IMG/VR virus record: IMGVR_UViG_3300036854_000028
Span: 1 to 50,845 of that record
Length of the DNA stretch: 50,845 bases
DNA from: a virus
Strand: one strand, 5' to 3'
The notes beneath the pieces were generated by a model. That model searched no databases, had not been told where the DNA came from, and saw nothing but the letters and a program-made list of their open reading frames with translations. The position numbers were made by a program, and so were the translations under genes. Positions 11,255 through 30,244 of the stretch are shown here, one piece after another. The stretch's first letter is position 1; each line of letters begins with the position of its first letter.

Positions 11255-11394
11255 CCCGATCAGGTGACACCTGTAGCGCTGCGTGCGCGGCCGGCGATAT
11301 CCACGGTGGGGCCCCGGAGACCTGATAGACGCGCGACCGGGGAGTCTGCTCAGACCCCGCACCTGCCCGGCTCGCCTCGATCCCGAGGAGAGCC
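11255..11394. promoter_or_regulatory. Intergenic gap with palindrome and hairpin
   Basis: CAGGTG-A-CACCTG at 11261-11273 is a perfect 13-bp palindrome. GTCTG (11344-11348) pairs with CAGAC (11351-11355), extended by GGG/CCC across a bulged A, giving a terminator-like hairpin. GAGGAGAG just before 11395 is the ribosome site of the next gene. Confidence 0.35.
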
Positions 11395-11691
11395 ATGTCC
11401 GACGAGTTGGCGGGCGACGAGCTGGCGGCCGTGATCCTGGTACCAGACGTCGAGCAGGACCGGTGGCTGGCCCGCTGCATGGACCACATCGAACGCTGCG
11501 GCTACCGGCTGGCGGCGATCGTGCGGCGCTGGGAGGACGCCCATCGGCTGATCGGCGCCGGGCAGGTCCAGGTCGTCGTCGTGGCCCGCCCGGAGCACAT
11601 CCCGCCGCAGCGGGTACCGCGGTTCGAGGTGGCCGGGGAAGAGGGGCCGGCGCTGACCCGCCGCCAGCGCCGGCCCCGGCCGATCAGCTGA
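11395..11691 (+). CDS. Small protein resembling a resolvase N-terminal region
   Basis: This 98-residue protein has a strong ribosome site. The pattern of a first strand (AVILVPD), a helix with IERCGYRLAAIVRRW, and a strand VQVVVVARPEHI recalls the first beta-alpha-beta units of serine recombinases, but the catalytic Ser and the rest of the domain are missing. It converges with, and overlaps by 8 bases, the integrase gene. Function unknown. Confidence 0.45.
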   Translation: MSDELAGDELAAVILVPDVEQDRWLARCMDHIERCGYRLAAIVRRWEDAHRLIGAGQVQVVVVARPEHIPPQRVPRFEVAGEEGPALTRRQRRPRPIS

Positions 11692-12553
11692 ACCTCGGCA
11701 GCGTTTCCCGGGCGGCGCGCTGCTGCGCGAGGGTCGCCTGCGTATAGATCTGCGTCGACTGAAGGGAGGCGTGGCCAAGGATCTCCTGGGTGACCCGGGC
11801 GTCGCGGTACGCGGCCTGCACGGTGACGCCGAGCCAGTGCCGCATCCGATGCAGGGCGACCCCGGGCATGCCGAGGCGGCGGCGGAAGTACACCGCCGAG
11901 CGGATGGAGATGTACTTGCGGTCGGCGCGCTCGCCCGTGCGTGGGTCTATGGCGATCGGCCCGGGCGGCAGGTCCCGCACGGCCTCCCACACGGCCGGAT
12001 CGGTGTCGTGCCAGCGCGGCTTGCCGCCTTTGCCTCGCACGACCAGCAGCCGTTCCTGCGTGATGTGCTCGCGGTCCAGGCCGGCGATCTCGCAGCACCG
12101 CAGGCCCTGGTAGGCGGCGATCAGGGACCAGAGCCGGTACGGCTCGATCGCCTCGGTGAGGATCCGGCGCAGCTGCTCGTGCTCGATGGGTCGGGCGATC
12201 CCCCGCGGCGCCCGTGGCTTGGGTGGCATGTACCGCATCGGGTTGTCCCCGCCCAGCCACGGGTCGTCGACGTCGAAGGAGCGCGCGTAGAACGAGGCGA
12301 GGGCTCCATAGTACGTCTCCTGGCTGGACAGCTGGCAGTCGTCGCGGTAGACGAGCGGGATCAGCTCGTCGGCGTTGGCCCGTTCGAGGCCGAACGGGAG
12401 CTGCTGATCCATGCGGGTGAGGATGTCGCGGCGACCATCGACGGTCGCCGCTGAACATCTGGCTTCTGGGCTAGCCAGCCACCTGAGGTATCGCTCCAGC
12501 ACTGTCATTTCCTGATCGTCCGACTGCGGCTCGTGAGAATGTGATCGGGTCAT
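11684..12553 (-). CDS. int: Tyrosine site-specific integrase
   Basis: This 289-residue protein has a SAM-like N-terminal domain (about residues 15-95) and a catalytic domain (about 115-285). The active-site residues are all visible: Arg152 in GLRCCEIAGL, Lys175 in VRGKGGKPR, His235 and Arg238 in LHRMRHWLG, His261 in LGHASLQST and the nucleophile Tyr270 in TQIYTQA. It integrates and, with the excisionase, excises the phage. Its start overlaps the stop of the repressor gene (TGATG), so both are made from one leftward message. No space is left downstream for attP, because the 3' end overlaps a convergent gene. Confidence 0.92.
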   Translation of the reverse strand: MTRSHSHEPQSDDQEMTVLERYLRWLASPEARCSAATVDGRRDILTRMDQQLPFGLERANADELIPLVYRDDCQLSSQETYYGALASFYARSFDVDDPWLGGDNPMRYMPPKPRAPRGIARPIEHEQLRRILTEAIEPYRLWSLIAAYQGLRCCEIAGLDREHITQERLLVVRGKGGKPRWHDTDPAVWEAVRDLPPGPIAIDPRTGERADRKYISIRSAVYFRRRLGMPGVALHRMRHWLGVTVQAAYRDARVTQEILGHASLQSTQIYTQATLAQQRAARETLPRFS

Positions 12554-13044
12554 CAGGCGGCATCCCGGTTGCGGCCCGGCCGGATTGGCGCCGGTCGGCG
12601 GTGGCGGGGGGACTGGACGGGGATGCCGGGGTGGCTGGGCGGCCGGTTGTCAGCGGGCCGGACACGATCGGGGGAGCCCGAAGGGCCTGACCTTGCGGCC
12701 GGCCGCACCCTCGCAAGCGTAGGTTGCGAGGCTTTCCCCGTGCCGGATGCCGAAGGTCCGGTCGGCCGATAGACACCGGCCATGCAGGGGCCGGCGAGTA
12801 GCCATCCGTAGTCGACGCCGGTCCGCTCGGCGATCCGGGCGGCGATCTCGACTAGGCGTCGAGGCTGGGCGTTCTCCAGTTCCCAGAGGCGCCATGACGC
12901 TGCCGGCACGCCGCATGCGAGTGCGGCCTCTTTGATGTTCCACCCCATCCGCCAGCGCACCAGTGCGAGGCGCGCGGCGAAGCTCTCATCCGTCGGGATC
13001 CACGGCGGGGTCTCGACCGGGTTCCCCAGGACTTCGGCTGTCAT
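12553..13044 (-). CDS. Immunity repressor, HTH domain with long disordered C-terminal tail
   Basis: ATG 13044 gives 163 residues. Residues about 20-85 form a Cro/CI-type HTH (RLALVRWRMGWNIKEAALAC, then PAASWRLWELE). Residues 87-163 are Pro/Arg/Ser-rich, disordered and end in RNRDAA. The gene is upstream of, and overlaps, the integrase. A perfect inverted repeat with a 7-bp spacer sits in the codons for residues about 105-112, just after the folded domain. This is the architecture of integration-dependent immunity switches, where attP lies in the repressor gene and integration removes a destabilising tail. The start codon lies six bases after a -10 box, so the message may be leaderless. Confidence 0.8.
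   Translation of the reverse strand: MTAEVLGNPVETPPWIPTDESFAARLALVRWRMGWNIKEAALACGVPAASWRLWELENAQPRRLVEIAARIAERTGVDYGWLLAGPCMAGVYRPTGPSASGTGKASQPTLARVRPAARSGPSGSPDRVRPADNRPPSHPGIPVQSPRHRRPAPIRPGRNRDAA
12709..12731. promoter_or_regulatory. attP: Candidate attP core inside the repressor gene
   Basis: CCTCGCAA (12709-12716), spacer GCGTAGG (12717-12723) and TTGCGAGG (12724-12731) form a perfect inverted repeat of 8-bp arms around 7 bp. This is the geometry of a tyrosine-recombinase core site: two arm-binding sites flanking the strand-exchange overlap. It lies just past the folded part of the repressor. No host sequence is present to test it, so the call is inference. Confidence 0.45.
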
Positions 13045-13137
13045 GCCAACAGGATACCGGGTATGACACATCAGGCAACATATCTGGCATGAACCTGTCC
13101 TTGACACAGCTTTCTGAGTCAGAGTACCTTCATGTCC
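13045..13137. promoter_or_regulatory. Divergent leaderless promoters of the lysogeny switch
   Basis: Rightward: TTGACA (13101-13106), 18 bases, TACCTT (13125-13130), with ATG 13138 at the expected transcription start. Leftward: -35 TTGCCT (13073-13078) and -10 TATCCT (13051-13056), 16 bases apart, six bases before ATG 13044. TGACACAGCTT is repeated at 13102-13112 and 13139-13149, covering the rightward -35 box and the start codon, and TGACACA recurs at 13064-13070. The copies are operator or excisionase-site candidates. Confidence 0.6.
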
Positions 13138-13326
13138 ATGACACAGCTTCCCGAGCTTATGACGCCAGCGGAGGTAGCGGAAGCCCTCCGGCTCAGCGAC
13201 GAGACGATCCATCGCTGGGCGCGCATCGGGAAACTTCCGCACGTCGATGTCCTGGGCGTCAAGCGCTTCCGCCGTGAGGACGTCGAGGCGATCCTGCGCG
13301 GCGAGACCCCGGCGAGCGCCGCATGA
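13138..13326 (+). CDS. Excisionase/Cro-like HTH protein
   Basis: From ATG 13138 this is 62 residues (ATG 13132 adds two). MTPAEVAEALRLSDETIHRW followed by IGKLPHVDVLGVKRFRREDV is a MerR-type helix-turn-helix (HTH_17) with wing, the usual form of actinophage excisionases. It is transcribed away from the repressor and is the first gene of the rightward early operon. It could act as the Xis partner of the integrase, as the Cro-like lytic regulator, or both. Confidence 0.72.
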   Translation: MTQLPELMTPAEVAEALRLSDETIHRWARIGKLPHVDVLGVKRFRREDVEAILRGETPASAA

Positions 13327-14414: not shown

Positions 14415-14650
14415 CCTCACCCACGTCCCGCGCGGTGCGCCCCGGCAGGGGCGGCGGCGAGCGCACGCCGGGACACGGCCGCCCCGGGCGCTTCCCCCCG
14501 GCCCGGGGCGGCCACCAGACGGCTGCCGGCTCATGGAGTCGCCGGCAGATGGACACCGCTGGTGTCCAGCCCGGCCGGCCCGATCGGGAAGCGGGCCGGC
14601 CGGGTAACCCCCCAACCCCCAACCCCCAGGAGATGTCGTGCCGAACCTGA
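14411..14650 (+). CDS. Doubtful ORF covering the stem-loop array
   Basis: ATG 14411 overlaps the previous stop (ATGA), which favours translation. The 79-residue product is featureless, rich in Gly/Pro/Arg, and the DNA consists largely of five perfect inverted repeats (14438-14604) and C-rich repeats. The RNA or DNA structure is probably what is selected, and the frame may be open only because the region is GC-rich. Confidence 0.3.
   Translation: MTSPTSRAVRPGRGGGERTPGHGRPGRFPPARGGHQTAAGSWSRRQMDTAGVQPGRPDREAGRPGNPPTPNPQEMSCRT
14438..14604. other. Array of five consecutive perfect stem-loops
   Basis: Five non-overlapping perfect inverted repeats: 14438-14453 (6-bp stem, 4-base loop), 14477-14513 (12-bp stem GGCCGCCCCGGG), 14524-14547 (7 bp, TGCCGGC), 14551-14567 (7 bp, GGACACC, 3-base loop) and 14570-14604 (13-bp stem CCCGGCCGGCCCG). 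They run almost end to end, before the gene at 14638. This may be a structured RNA, a terminator cluster, or a replication or nicking origin; the sequence does not decide. Confidence 0.6.
14606..14628 (+). repeat. AACCCCC tandem repeat
   Basis: AACCCCCC, AACCCCC and AACCCCC follow one another directly after the last stem-loop and before the ribosome site of the gene at 14638. The complementary strand has three runs of five or six G separated by TT, so G-quadruplex-like structure is possible. Confidence 0.55.
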
Positions 14651-15378
14651 TCGACCTGGATGCCCTCCAGCTCGCCAAGGGCGCCCACCCCGATGGGCCG
14701 CCCCCCGGCGACCCGAACTGCGAGATGTGCCTCTTCGAGGCGTACAACGCCCTCCTCGCGTTCTGCGGCCAGCGCGAGATCGACGAGCTGACCGACGAAT
14801 GTCCCGACGACGTGTCGCCCATCCTGCACCGCATGGGCGTCTACTTGAACGACCTGCTGCCCGACGATGTGCGCCAGCACATGAAGCAGTACCTGCCCGA
14901 CCCCATCACCGGCCGTTCCCTCCTGTCCGGCACCCGCGACGACGGCCTCGACGAGCAGCGGCAGTGGATGGCCGCCGACTGGACCGTCCAGTACGCCCTG
15001 CCGCGCTGGCTCGACGCCACCGGCCACGCCGAGCACGCGGCGCGGCTGCGCGTACTCGCCCCGATCACCGACCCGGCGTCTCTCGACGCGGCGTGGCCAG
15101 TGGTGCTCGCGGTCCGCGAGCAGATGTGGAGGCTGCGCCAGTCGCGGCTGGCCGAACTGCGCGCGACGTACCGGGCTGCCGGTGCCGTTGCCGGTGCCGT
15201 TGCCGCTGCCGGTGCCGGTGCCGGTGCCGGTGCCGGTGCCGGTGCCGCGTACAACGCGACCTACTACAAGGTCTACCACGCGGTGCGGCTGCAGATCGAG
15301 GCCAGGTACGCGCCGGTGAGCGCCGAGCTCCAAGGCTCGGCGCTCGGCTTGTACCACCGCATGATCCGCCCCGCCTGA
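14638..15378 (+). CDS. Conserved actinophage protein with Gly-Ala repeat
   Basis: GTG 14638 behind CAGGAG gives 246 residues. The first 110 residues, with EMCLFEAYNALLAF, CPDDVSPILHRMG and LPDDVRQHMKQYLPDP, resemble a family common in actinobacteria and their phages (Cys-containing helical domain, no assigned function). Residues about 180-204 are a pure Ala/Gly/Val stretch encoded by a hexanucleotide repeat. The last 40 residues are helical. Role unknown; its early position suggests takeover or replication support. Confidence 0.6.
   Translation: MPNLIDLDALQLAKGAHPDGPPPGDPNCEMCLFEAYNALLAFCGQREIDELTDECPDDVSPILHRMGVYLNDLLPDDVRQHMKQYLPDPITGRSLLSGTRDDGLDEQRQWMAADWTVQYALPRWLDATGHAEHAARLRVLAPITDPASLDAAWPVVLAVREQMWRLRQSRLAELRATYRAAGAVAGAVAAAGAGAGAGAGAGAAYNATYYKVYHAVRLQIEARYAPVSAELQGSALGLYHRMIRPA
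15181..15246 (+). repeat. GGTGCC hexanucleotide repeat inside a gene
   Basis: Eleven hexamers: GGTGCC, GTTGCC, GGTGCC, GTTGCC, GCTGCC, then six GGTGCC in a row, encoding Gly-Ala, Val-Ala and Ala-Ala dipeptides. The unit is two codons, so copy-number change by slippage keeps the frame. Confidence 0.9.
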
Positions 15379-17755: not shown

Positions 17756-17943
17756 TCGTGCCCGCCACGCAGATCGCCGCCACCATCGACGAGCGCCAGC
17801 CCCCCGGGACCCGCTATCCGCGGTTCGGCAGCTACCTGGGTGACCGGGCCGCGTACCTGCGCGCCGAGTCGCAGGCGATCGAGGCCGACATGCAGCGCCT
17901 CGTCGGCACCCTCCGCGCGGCCCGGATCGGAGTCGGGCAGTGA
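17752..17943 (+). CDS. Small hypothetical protein
   Basis: GTG 17752 gives 63 residues, with a Pro/Arg-rich middle (PPGTRYPRFGSYLGDRAAYL) and a helical end. It is tightly coupled to its neighbours. No motif. Confidence 0.45.
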   Translation: MIVPATQIAATIDERQPPGTRYPRFGSYLGDRAAYLRAESQAIEADMQRLVGTLRAARIGVGQ

Positions 17944-18374
17944 CCGGCGTCGTCCCGGCCGAGCAGATTCTCGCCGACATCGACACGCGTGGGGGGGAAA
18001 CACCCCGCGCCGTCCATCCCGTCGTCCGCGATCTGACACTGATCCGTAGGCGGCAAGGCCGTTCGCAGAGCGGAGTCAGCCGTGACGCCGACCTGTCTCA
18101 GCAGTCGATCTGCCGTTGGGAGATGGGAGACGTCGTACCGCGACTGGACAACCTCGCCGCGTGGGCCGGCGCACTTGGGTACGACCTTGTGCTCCGGCAG
18201 CGTGTCGTGGTCCCCGATCCGGATGTCGTAACCCCCGCGCAAGGTAACCGCGTCACGGACGACATGGGCCGCTACGGCGTTGACGCGGTACTCGCGGGCC
18301 GCGTCGGGCGTACCGCCGACGCGTTCGAGACGCCAGCCGAGATCGCCGCACACGACCGGAGGTTGGACGCATGA
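17940..18374 (+). CDS. XRE-type HTH regulator in the early operon
   Basis: GTG 17940 gives 144 residues. Residues about 30-85 form a lambda-repressor-like HTH: LIRRRQGRSQSGVSRDADLS, then QQSICRWEMGDVVPRLDNL. The C-terminal 60 residues are unlike known partners, with an EIAAHDRRLDA end. It is the last of the coupled small genes before the recombination genes and may tune early transcription. Confidence 0.65.
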   Translation: MTGVVPAEQILADIDTRGGETPRAVHPVVRDLTLIRRRQGRSQSGVSRDADLSQQSICRWEMGDVVPRLDNLAAWAGALGYDLVLRQRVVVPDPDVVTPAQGNRVTDDMGRYGVDAVLAGRVGRTADAFETPAEIAAHDRRLDA

Positions 18375-29510: not shown

Positions 29511-29853
29511 AACCTGCCCCGGCTGCGGCGAGCTGCTCACCGACCCGAAAGACTGCGACCACTGCGAATACTTCAACCTCGCCAGCGGCCGGAACCACTA
29601 CTGCGGGCGGGACGAGTGCTACTGCCGGGAGCTTCGCCGAACCATGAAGCGCGAGGTTCTTGGCCAGTTCGCGGCTCGCCATGCCGCCACCTTCGCTGGC
29701 TGGCAAGCGCTCCGTGTCGCGTTCGCCGACCGGCCGGACCTGCTTCACCCCGGCGTCGGAGATTTCATCGCGCGGACCGTCGTAGACGCGGCGTGGCCGA
29801 TCCTCGGCGTCCGACCGGCCGCGAGCGAGACGGGAGACGGCGATGGCCGCTGA
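29500..29853 (+). CDS. Cys-rich hypothetical protein
   Basis: ATG 29500 gives 117 residues. Cys pairs in CPGCGELLTDPKDCDHCEY and in HYCGRDECYCRELRRTM point to zinc binding; the rest is helical. The end, SETGDGDG, is nearly the same as the end of the upstream exoribonuclease, because a 24-base sequence around the gene junction is duplicated. Confidence 0.55.
   Translation: MAAETCPGCGELLTDPKDCDHCEYFNLASGRNHYCGRDECYCRELRRTMKREVLGQFAARHAATFAGWQALRVAFADRPDLLHPGVGDFIARTVVDAAWPILGVRPAASETGDGDGR
29824..29847 (+). repeat. 24-base junction repeat, copy 2
   Basis: Identical to 29481-29504, with the flanks also similar (GCTGAACCTG against GCTGAAACCTG). It includes the ribosome site GGGAG and ATG 29843 of the HTH gene. 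Confidence 0.9.
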
Positions 29854-30244
29854 ACCTGTCTCCGACCTCATGCGCACCGTCGGCGCCCGCATCCGCGCGC
29901 TCCGCGAAATCTACGACGTGACCCAGGAAGAGATCGCCAAGGAAGCCGGCCTCAACCGCACCTCGATCACCAACATCGAGTCCGGCCGGCAGAACGCCCA
30001 ACTCGACGCGCTCGCCGCCGTCGCGAAGCACTTCGGGGTGTCGCTGGGCGCGCTGCTCGGCGAGTCCGACCTGCCCGCCCTCAGCCGCGTCCTCGTCGTG
30101 TCGGTATGCGAGGTGCGCTGCGAAACCTGCGGCGTGGTCGCTCAGGACTTGCCCCACGCGCAGGCGTACGAGGTGCGCAAGCAGCACATCCGGGGACACC
30201 TCGGCGCCGCCGTAGCCAAGATGATGGGAGGCGCCGATGGCTGA
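29843..30244 (+). CDS. XRE-type HTH protein with zinc-finger-like end
   Basis: ATG 29843 gives 133 residues. Residues about 10-75 are a classic Cro/CI HTH (GARIRALREIYDVTQEEIA, then LNRTSITNIESGRQ). After it comes RCETCGVVAQDL with a later KQHIRGH, a Cys2His2-like finger. A combined HTH and finger suggests a DNA-binding regulator, perhaps of late genes. Its start lies in the duplicated junction sequence. Confidence 0.68.
   Translation: MAAEPVSDLMRTVGARIRALREIYDVTQEEIAKEAGLNRTSITNIESGRQNAQLDALAAVAKHFGVSLGALLGESDLPALSRVLVVSVCEVRCETCGVVAQDLPHAQAYEVRKQHIRGHLGAAVAKMMGGADG

Follow-up and report, generated by a model that had tools for sequence, protein, structure and literature searches.

The window is the entire virus record (50,845 bp, 69% GC). 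On its minus strand lies a leftward pair of genes, a repressor gene (12553 to 13044; 163 aa in the virion form, C terminus ...NRDAA; phrog_2328 transcriptional repressor, E = 1e-16) and a tyrosine integrase gene (11684 to 12553; 289 aa; Phage_integrase PF00589, E = 4e-11; phrog_1). The repressor stop and the integrase start overlap as TGATG, confirming an arrangement noted in an earlier sequence-only reading, which had also argued that the 3′ end of int leaves no room for attP; this end is indeed overlapped by a convergent open reading frame (11395 to 11691, plus strand), and a similar frame covers the end of int in a relative (G400). The integrase terminates in ...LPRFS, without a degradation tag. 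It was considered as a possible simple (arm-less) integrase of the Brujita type; its homology to matching proteins begins at residues 9 to 34. On the other side of the repressor gene, a divergent control region (13045 to 13131) leads to a plus-strand gene for a Cro- or excisionase-like MerR/HTH_17 protein (13132 to 13326; PF12728, E = 3e-13; phrog_66 excisionase and transcriptional regulator). The control region carries candidate operator repeats: between 13063 and 13155, TGACACA occurs three times at a spacing of ∼37 bp, inside a 23-nt direct repeat (13096 to 13118 and 13133 to 13155). Elsewhere, the phage encodes two further HTH_3 regulators (17940 to 18374 and 29843 to 30244, both plus strand) and a plus-strand open reading frame (14638 to 15378) whose C-terminal half contains a long Ala-Gly repeat (AGAGAGAGAGAG).

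The repressor was expected to consist of a folded helix-turn-helix (HTH) domain followed by a disordered tail ending in DAA, and the AlphaFold2 confidence profile bears this out. In a model based on 18 homologues, residues 21 to 80 form a block with pLDDT values of 91 to 94, helices continue to residue 89, and confidence is low from about residue 91 onward. The best Foldseek match of the model is 434 Cro (E = 3e-3), and we define the HTH head as residues 20 to 89 (12778 to 12987, minus strand). The disordered tail, approximately residues 114 to 163 (12556 to 12705, minus strand), is predicted from the alignment to be lost upon integration; a homologous tail stands at attR in two related prophages, L095 and G447.

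By sequence homology, the head belongs to phrog_2328, which is also the family of the Brujita repressor. In tblastn comparisons, the head is 52% identical to Brujita over 71 residues, and the repressor shares 55 to 62% identity with the Gordonia phages Bowser, MagicMan, and Schnabeltier (71 to 80 residues), 54.6% with Arthrobacter phage Elesar (residues 1 to 97), and 47% with Mycobacterium abscessus prophi91-3 (residues 8 to 107). According to its record, which starts at the cut, prophi91-3 has attP within the repressor. In three actinobacterial genome loci (L016, L017, and L018), repressor homologues end beside a tRNA-Arg gene, the arrangement that a prophage with integration-dependent immunity and a tRNA attB should show. 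Integration-dependent immunity has been published for BPs (PMC4557955) and for M. abscessus clusters (PMC8092301) and has been reviewed (PMC9262239). The gene layout alone, however, is no proof that attP lies in the repressor, since Arthrobacter phage Galaxy has a repressor-int organization reminiscent of this system, with attP mapping outside the repressor (PMC5513430). Following Galaxy, the two genes of the window could be ordinary neighbors, with attP elsewhere (at 11255 to 11394 or between the repressor and xis) and an intact repressor in the lysogen.

To place the locus among its relatives, viral contigs were scanned with an alignment of three integrases, which gave 23 loci; a scan of viral contigs with the single repressor protein found no relative, and the integrase scan of genome contigs returned two distant matches. 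At most of the 23 loci, the end of an HTH repressor gene lies beside int. Two types of head occur, phrog_2328-like (L092, L097, L098, and L103) and HTH_3/phrog_4583-like (L090, L091, L093, and L094), but both carry a common tail with recognizable blocks. Conserved tail blocks behind two different HTH heads mark the att position within the gene, which argues against the Galaxy-like arrangement.

Both junctions are readable in a 27-kb prophage located at yqgE-mtnP (G447), whose integrase is 50% identical to that of the window. At attL, a complete HTH head ends in GAC ATG GCA CCA TAG at residue 87, with mtnP beyond; the TAG is supplied by the host sequence GCACCATAGC. At attR, host yqgE is followed by a 46-residue tail and int. 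The common core, ∼10 bp (TGGCACCATA), lies between yqgE and mtnP. When the phage flanks are rejoined, they encode a single open frame of 133 aa, as opposed to the 87 aa of the prophage form. The attB restored in the same way fits the pattern seen in other G198-family genomes. Thus, integration in this clade removes 46 residues and creates the stop at attL, and the G447 prophage is a relative whose repressor is truncated at the point where the sequence-only reading had expected it. In a second locus, L095, the int end of a prophage is flanked by a host yqgE/AlgH gene (DUF179). Compared with an empty site (L166; 98% identical YqgE), which reads ...GCCATGAACGCACATTA-GCCC where L095 reads ...GCCATGAACGCACATTA-CTTCGG, identity ends exactly after GCACATTA. 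Past this junction come the repressor tail and int, without a head; L095 therefore has the same attR as G447. The relatives show the position of attP, the splitting of the gene, and the host-derived stop. Most of the G198-family genomes sampled have a strongly conserved yqgE-mtnP intergenic attB (GCCATG..GCAC[ACG][AT]TAGC; loci L136, L137, L166 to L195, and L226 to L285).

Host DNA also replaces the head upstream of int in G607, G433, and several more distant loci; attL of G607 and G433 was not found within the stretches fetched. Members of the same integrase clade occupy other sites as well: flank reading of L197 (G607), L198 (G433), L200 (G578), and L202 (G590) places prophages by an NlpC/P60-like gene, a tRNA-Gln-like sequence, a gcvT-like gene, and a leuB-like gene. 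Intact repressors lie beside int in two distant relatives, L201 and L204 (∼40% identity), whose contigs measure 3.6 and 4.7 kb and may or may not be integrated. These intact heads, the Galaxy precedent, and the failure to identify attB of the window phage in the genomes searched would suit ordinary neighbor genes. On the other hand, L095, G447, G607, and G433 have their prophage junctions 5′ of int, where host DNA stands instead of the head, and we regard a Galaxy-like arrangement in the window as very unlikely. The specific candidate at 11255 to 11394 was rejected, as the junctions solved in relatives fall 5′ of int.

A homologous head, a layout common to the clade, and junctions at the same point in two prophages indicate that attP very probably lies inside the repressor gene of the window phage, as first proposed, and that integration would truncate the repressor. 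The solved junctions of G447 and L095 align with the region around an inverted repeat in the window, and this alignment puts the predicted crossover at codons 110 to 113 (CTTGCGAGGGTG; 12706 to 12717, minus strand). The lysogen repressor is therefore predicted to end near residues 110 to 113, matching the original estimate of about residue 110. The integrase is only ∼50% identical to those of the solved prophages, which speaks against assuming the same event at this site.

The inverted repeat itself, the attP candidate of the sequence-only reading, is perfect (gene strand CCTCGCAA-CCTACGC-TTGCGAGG, 8-7-8; 12709 to 12731) and sits in the first conserved tail block. Shuffling the repressor gene produced a perfect repeat with arms of 8 bp or more and a 7-bp spacer in 1% of cases (4.5% for spacers of 6 to 8 bp), and the whole window holds five repeats of this kind, so that, taken alone, the repeat is only suggestive of attP. 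Its existence and its position just past the HTH domain stand, but not its status as a conserved feature: what relatives share is the position in the repressor gene, and they have no such perfect repeat at the equivalent place. This absence and the five copies in the window would fit a repeat that is due to chance or belongs to another feature and is merely overlapped by the functional core, for which we see slightly less than an even chance. Against this, the repeat overlaps a crossover position predicted independently from relatives, although the overlap involves its low-coordinate arm, away from its center. Core sites of integrases are often imperfect inverted repeats.

Comparison with attB sequences gave mixed results. 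When 16,938 segments of the window were ranked in a position-restricted comparison by their similarity to 51 distinct attB sequences from yqgE-mtnP, the segment 12697 to 12744 came within the top 25, in the orientation expected. An unrestricted alignment of 12690 to 12750 with whole yqgE-mtnP intergenic regions was not significant (best score, 22; shuffle median, 24), and the window core is not an exact match to GCACCATA. The proposed search of actinobacterial genomes for an attB core did not reveal that of the window phage: region 12600 to 12800 returned only GC-rich noise from 395 actinobacterial genomes. Neither a lysogen nor attB of the window phage was found in actinobacterial genomes, including 262 genomes of the class searched for a closer lysogen. 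A tRNA attB was considered but found no support: the window gave neither tRNA nor Rfam matches, and inspection by eye revealed nothing resembling a T-arm. In the 262-genome sample, an integrase search at 1e-35 matched only G198 itself, whereas at 1e-25 the G198 family yielded matches in 21 of its 201 genomes; the host of the window phage thus probably belongs in or near this family.

Taken together, the evidence makes it highly likely that the window phage has an integration-dependent immunity switch, with attP in the repressor gene and a truncated repressor in the lysogen. In the infecting phage, repressor and integrase would be expressed from one leftward operon, with the attachment site (∼12706 to 12731) directly past the DNA-binding domain. 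Recombination of attP with attB by the integrase would split the repressor gene, leaving the head at attL, closed by a nearby stop from host sequence, and the ∼50-residue tail at attR with int. The lysogenic, immunity-conferring form would then comprise ∼110 to 113 residues, perhaps with a few host-encoded ones added, and the virion form with its disordered tail would presumably be inactive or unstable. That the tail destabilizes the repressor is suggested by analogy with BPs in the literature.

The -DAA ending of the window repressor fits an ssrA-like tag. Tails of the relatives mostly lack -AA and end in STGD, RRDR, PDLP, TAQ, and others. Their codons contain a palindrome, GGCCGAACGGCC (L089 to L103; e.g., L103:3840-3935). 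With up to two mismatches, its core, GCCGAACGGCC, is present in 45 copies in 16 att regions, compared with a shuffle mean of 6.3 and a maximum of 15, figures that do not give a strict probability because the phages are related. Measured from the core, the copies cluster near +14, +57, and +97 bp, and they are translated as A-E-R-P, R-P-D-G-R, and R-T-A-Y; since all three frames are used, selection probably acts on the DNA. One reading of these observations keeps the truncation as proposed but regards the tail mainly as accessory DNA of attP, with sites for a recombination protein, and not as a degradation signal, with the two repressor forms differing little in stability. Fixed palindrome distances across three frames, the scarcity of -AA in the clade, and an untagged integrase in the window are in its favor. 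However, the window repressor does carry the -DAA end that an ssrA-like tag should have; proteolysis is proven for the BPs system (PMC4557955); for M. abscessus systems without tags, other signals are presumed (PMC8092301); and the palindrome has only a weak counterpart in the window, where GCCGACCGGCG (12589 to 12599, minus strand) is a weak match to the family palindrome and a 9-bp copy lies at 12758 to 12766. We consider this reading less likely than not.

Heads, including those of the two HTH families, reassort with tail-plus-int cassettes at the att core (L090, L092, L097, L098, and L103). L097 and L098 share 61% identity in their heads but 95% in their tails and 96% in int, and the breakpoint in their DNA falls within ∼15 bp of the core center. 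Conversely, heads are 84% identical between L092 and L097, with tails at 34% and int at 51%, and 81% identical between L098 and L103, with tails at 27% and int at 48%. The clade may represent a variant of the known system in which the tail is a translation of attP accessory DNA (GGCCGAACGGCC, putative sites for a recombination protein) and exchange at the core swaps heads, and with them the immunity type, while the tail-plus-int cassette stays; we give this a little under an even chance. The palindromes in tail codons, read in three frames, and the reassortment of heads with tail-plus-int cassettes are new at the family level.

The window locus shares with BPs and Brujita (PMC4557955; PMC9262239) a leftward repressor-int operon and a homologous head, and by prediction also attP after the HTH domain and a virion repressor longer than the prophage form. 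It differs in that both repressor and Int of BPs and Brujita are tagged for proteolysis, whereas the window Int is not. BPs and Brujita use the usual, though not universal, tRNA attB with a core of ∼35 bp, compared with yqgE-mtnP and a core of ∼10 bp in the solved relatives, and attP in the known systems is said to need no accessory sites (PMC9262239), unlike in these relatives with their repeated tail palindromes. Clusters MabB/C/H/K/N/O of M. abscessus (PMC8092301) likewise have attP in the repressor and an attL stop formed by host bases. Some resemble the present clade in having an attB outside tRNA genes, short cores, and repressors without tags, and the Int tag that is usual in such systems is absent in MabC/K/N/O/H (PMC8092301); they differ in their integrase clade (∼29% identical) and hosts. 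Homologous heads also occur in Gordonia phages Bowser, Schnabeltier, and MagicMan and Arthrobacter phages Elesar and Popper (PMC4982277; MK967377, MK392368), but MagicMan and Elesar have a gene or gap between int and the repressor; attB of Bowser and Schnabeltier was sought and not found.

Thus, the view that the window phage is a new case of known integration-dependent immunity is well supported. With it, this system, so far described mainly in phages of Mycobacterium, Gordonia, and Arthrobacter, is extended to another clade of actinobacterial phages, and the splitting of the repressor gene is demonstrated at the level of junctions in a public genome. With -AA tags mostly absent and DNA palindromes conserved in the tail, the clade offers a natural test of the role of the tail, and these palindromes question the view that attP needs no accessory sites (PMC9262239). 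Accessory-like tail DNA, head swapping at the core, and a non-tRNA attB are the features of the clade that merit bench tests. Through reassortment at the core, phages may have a simple means of exchanging immunity specificity.
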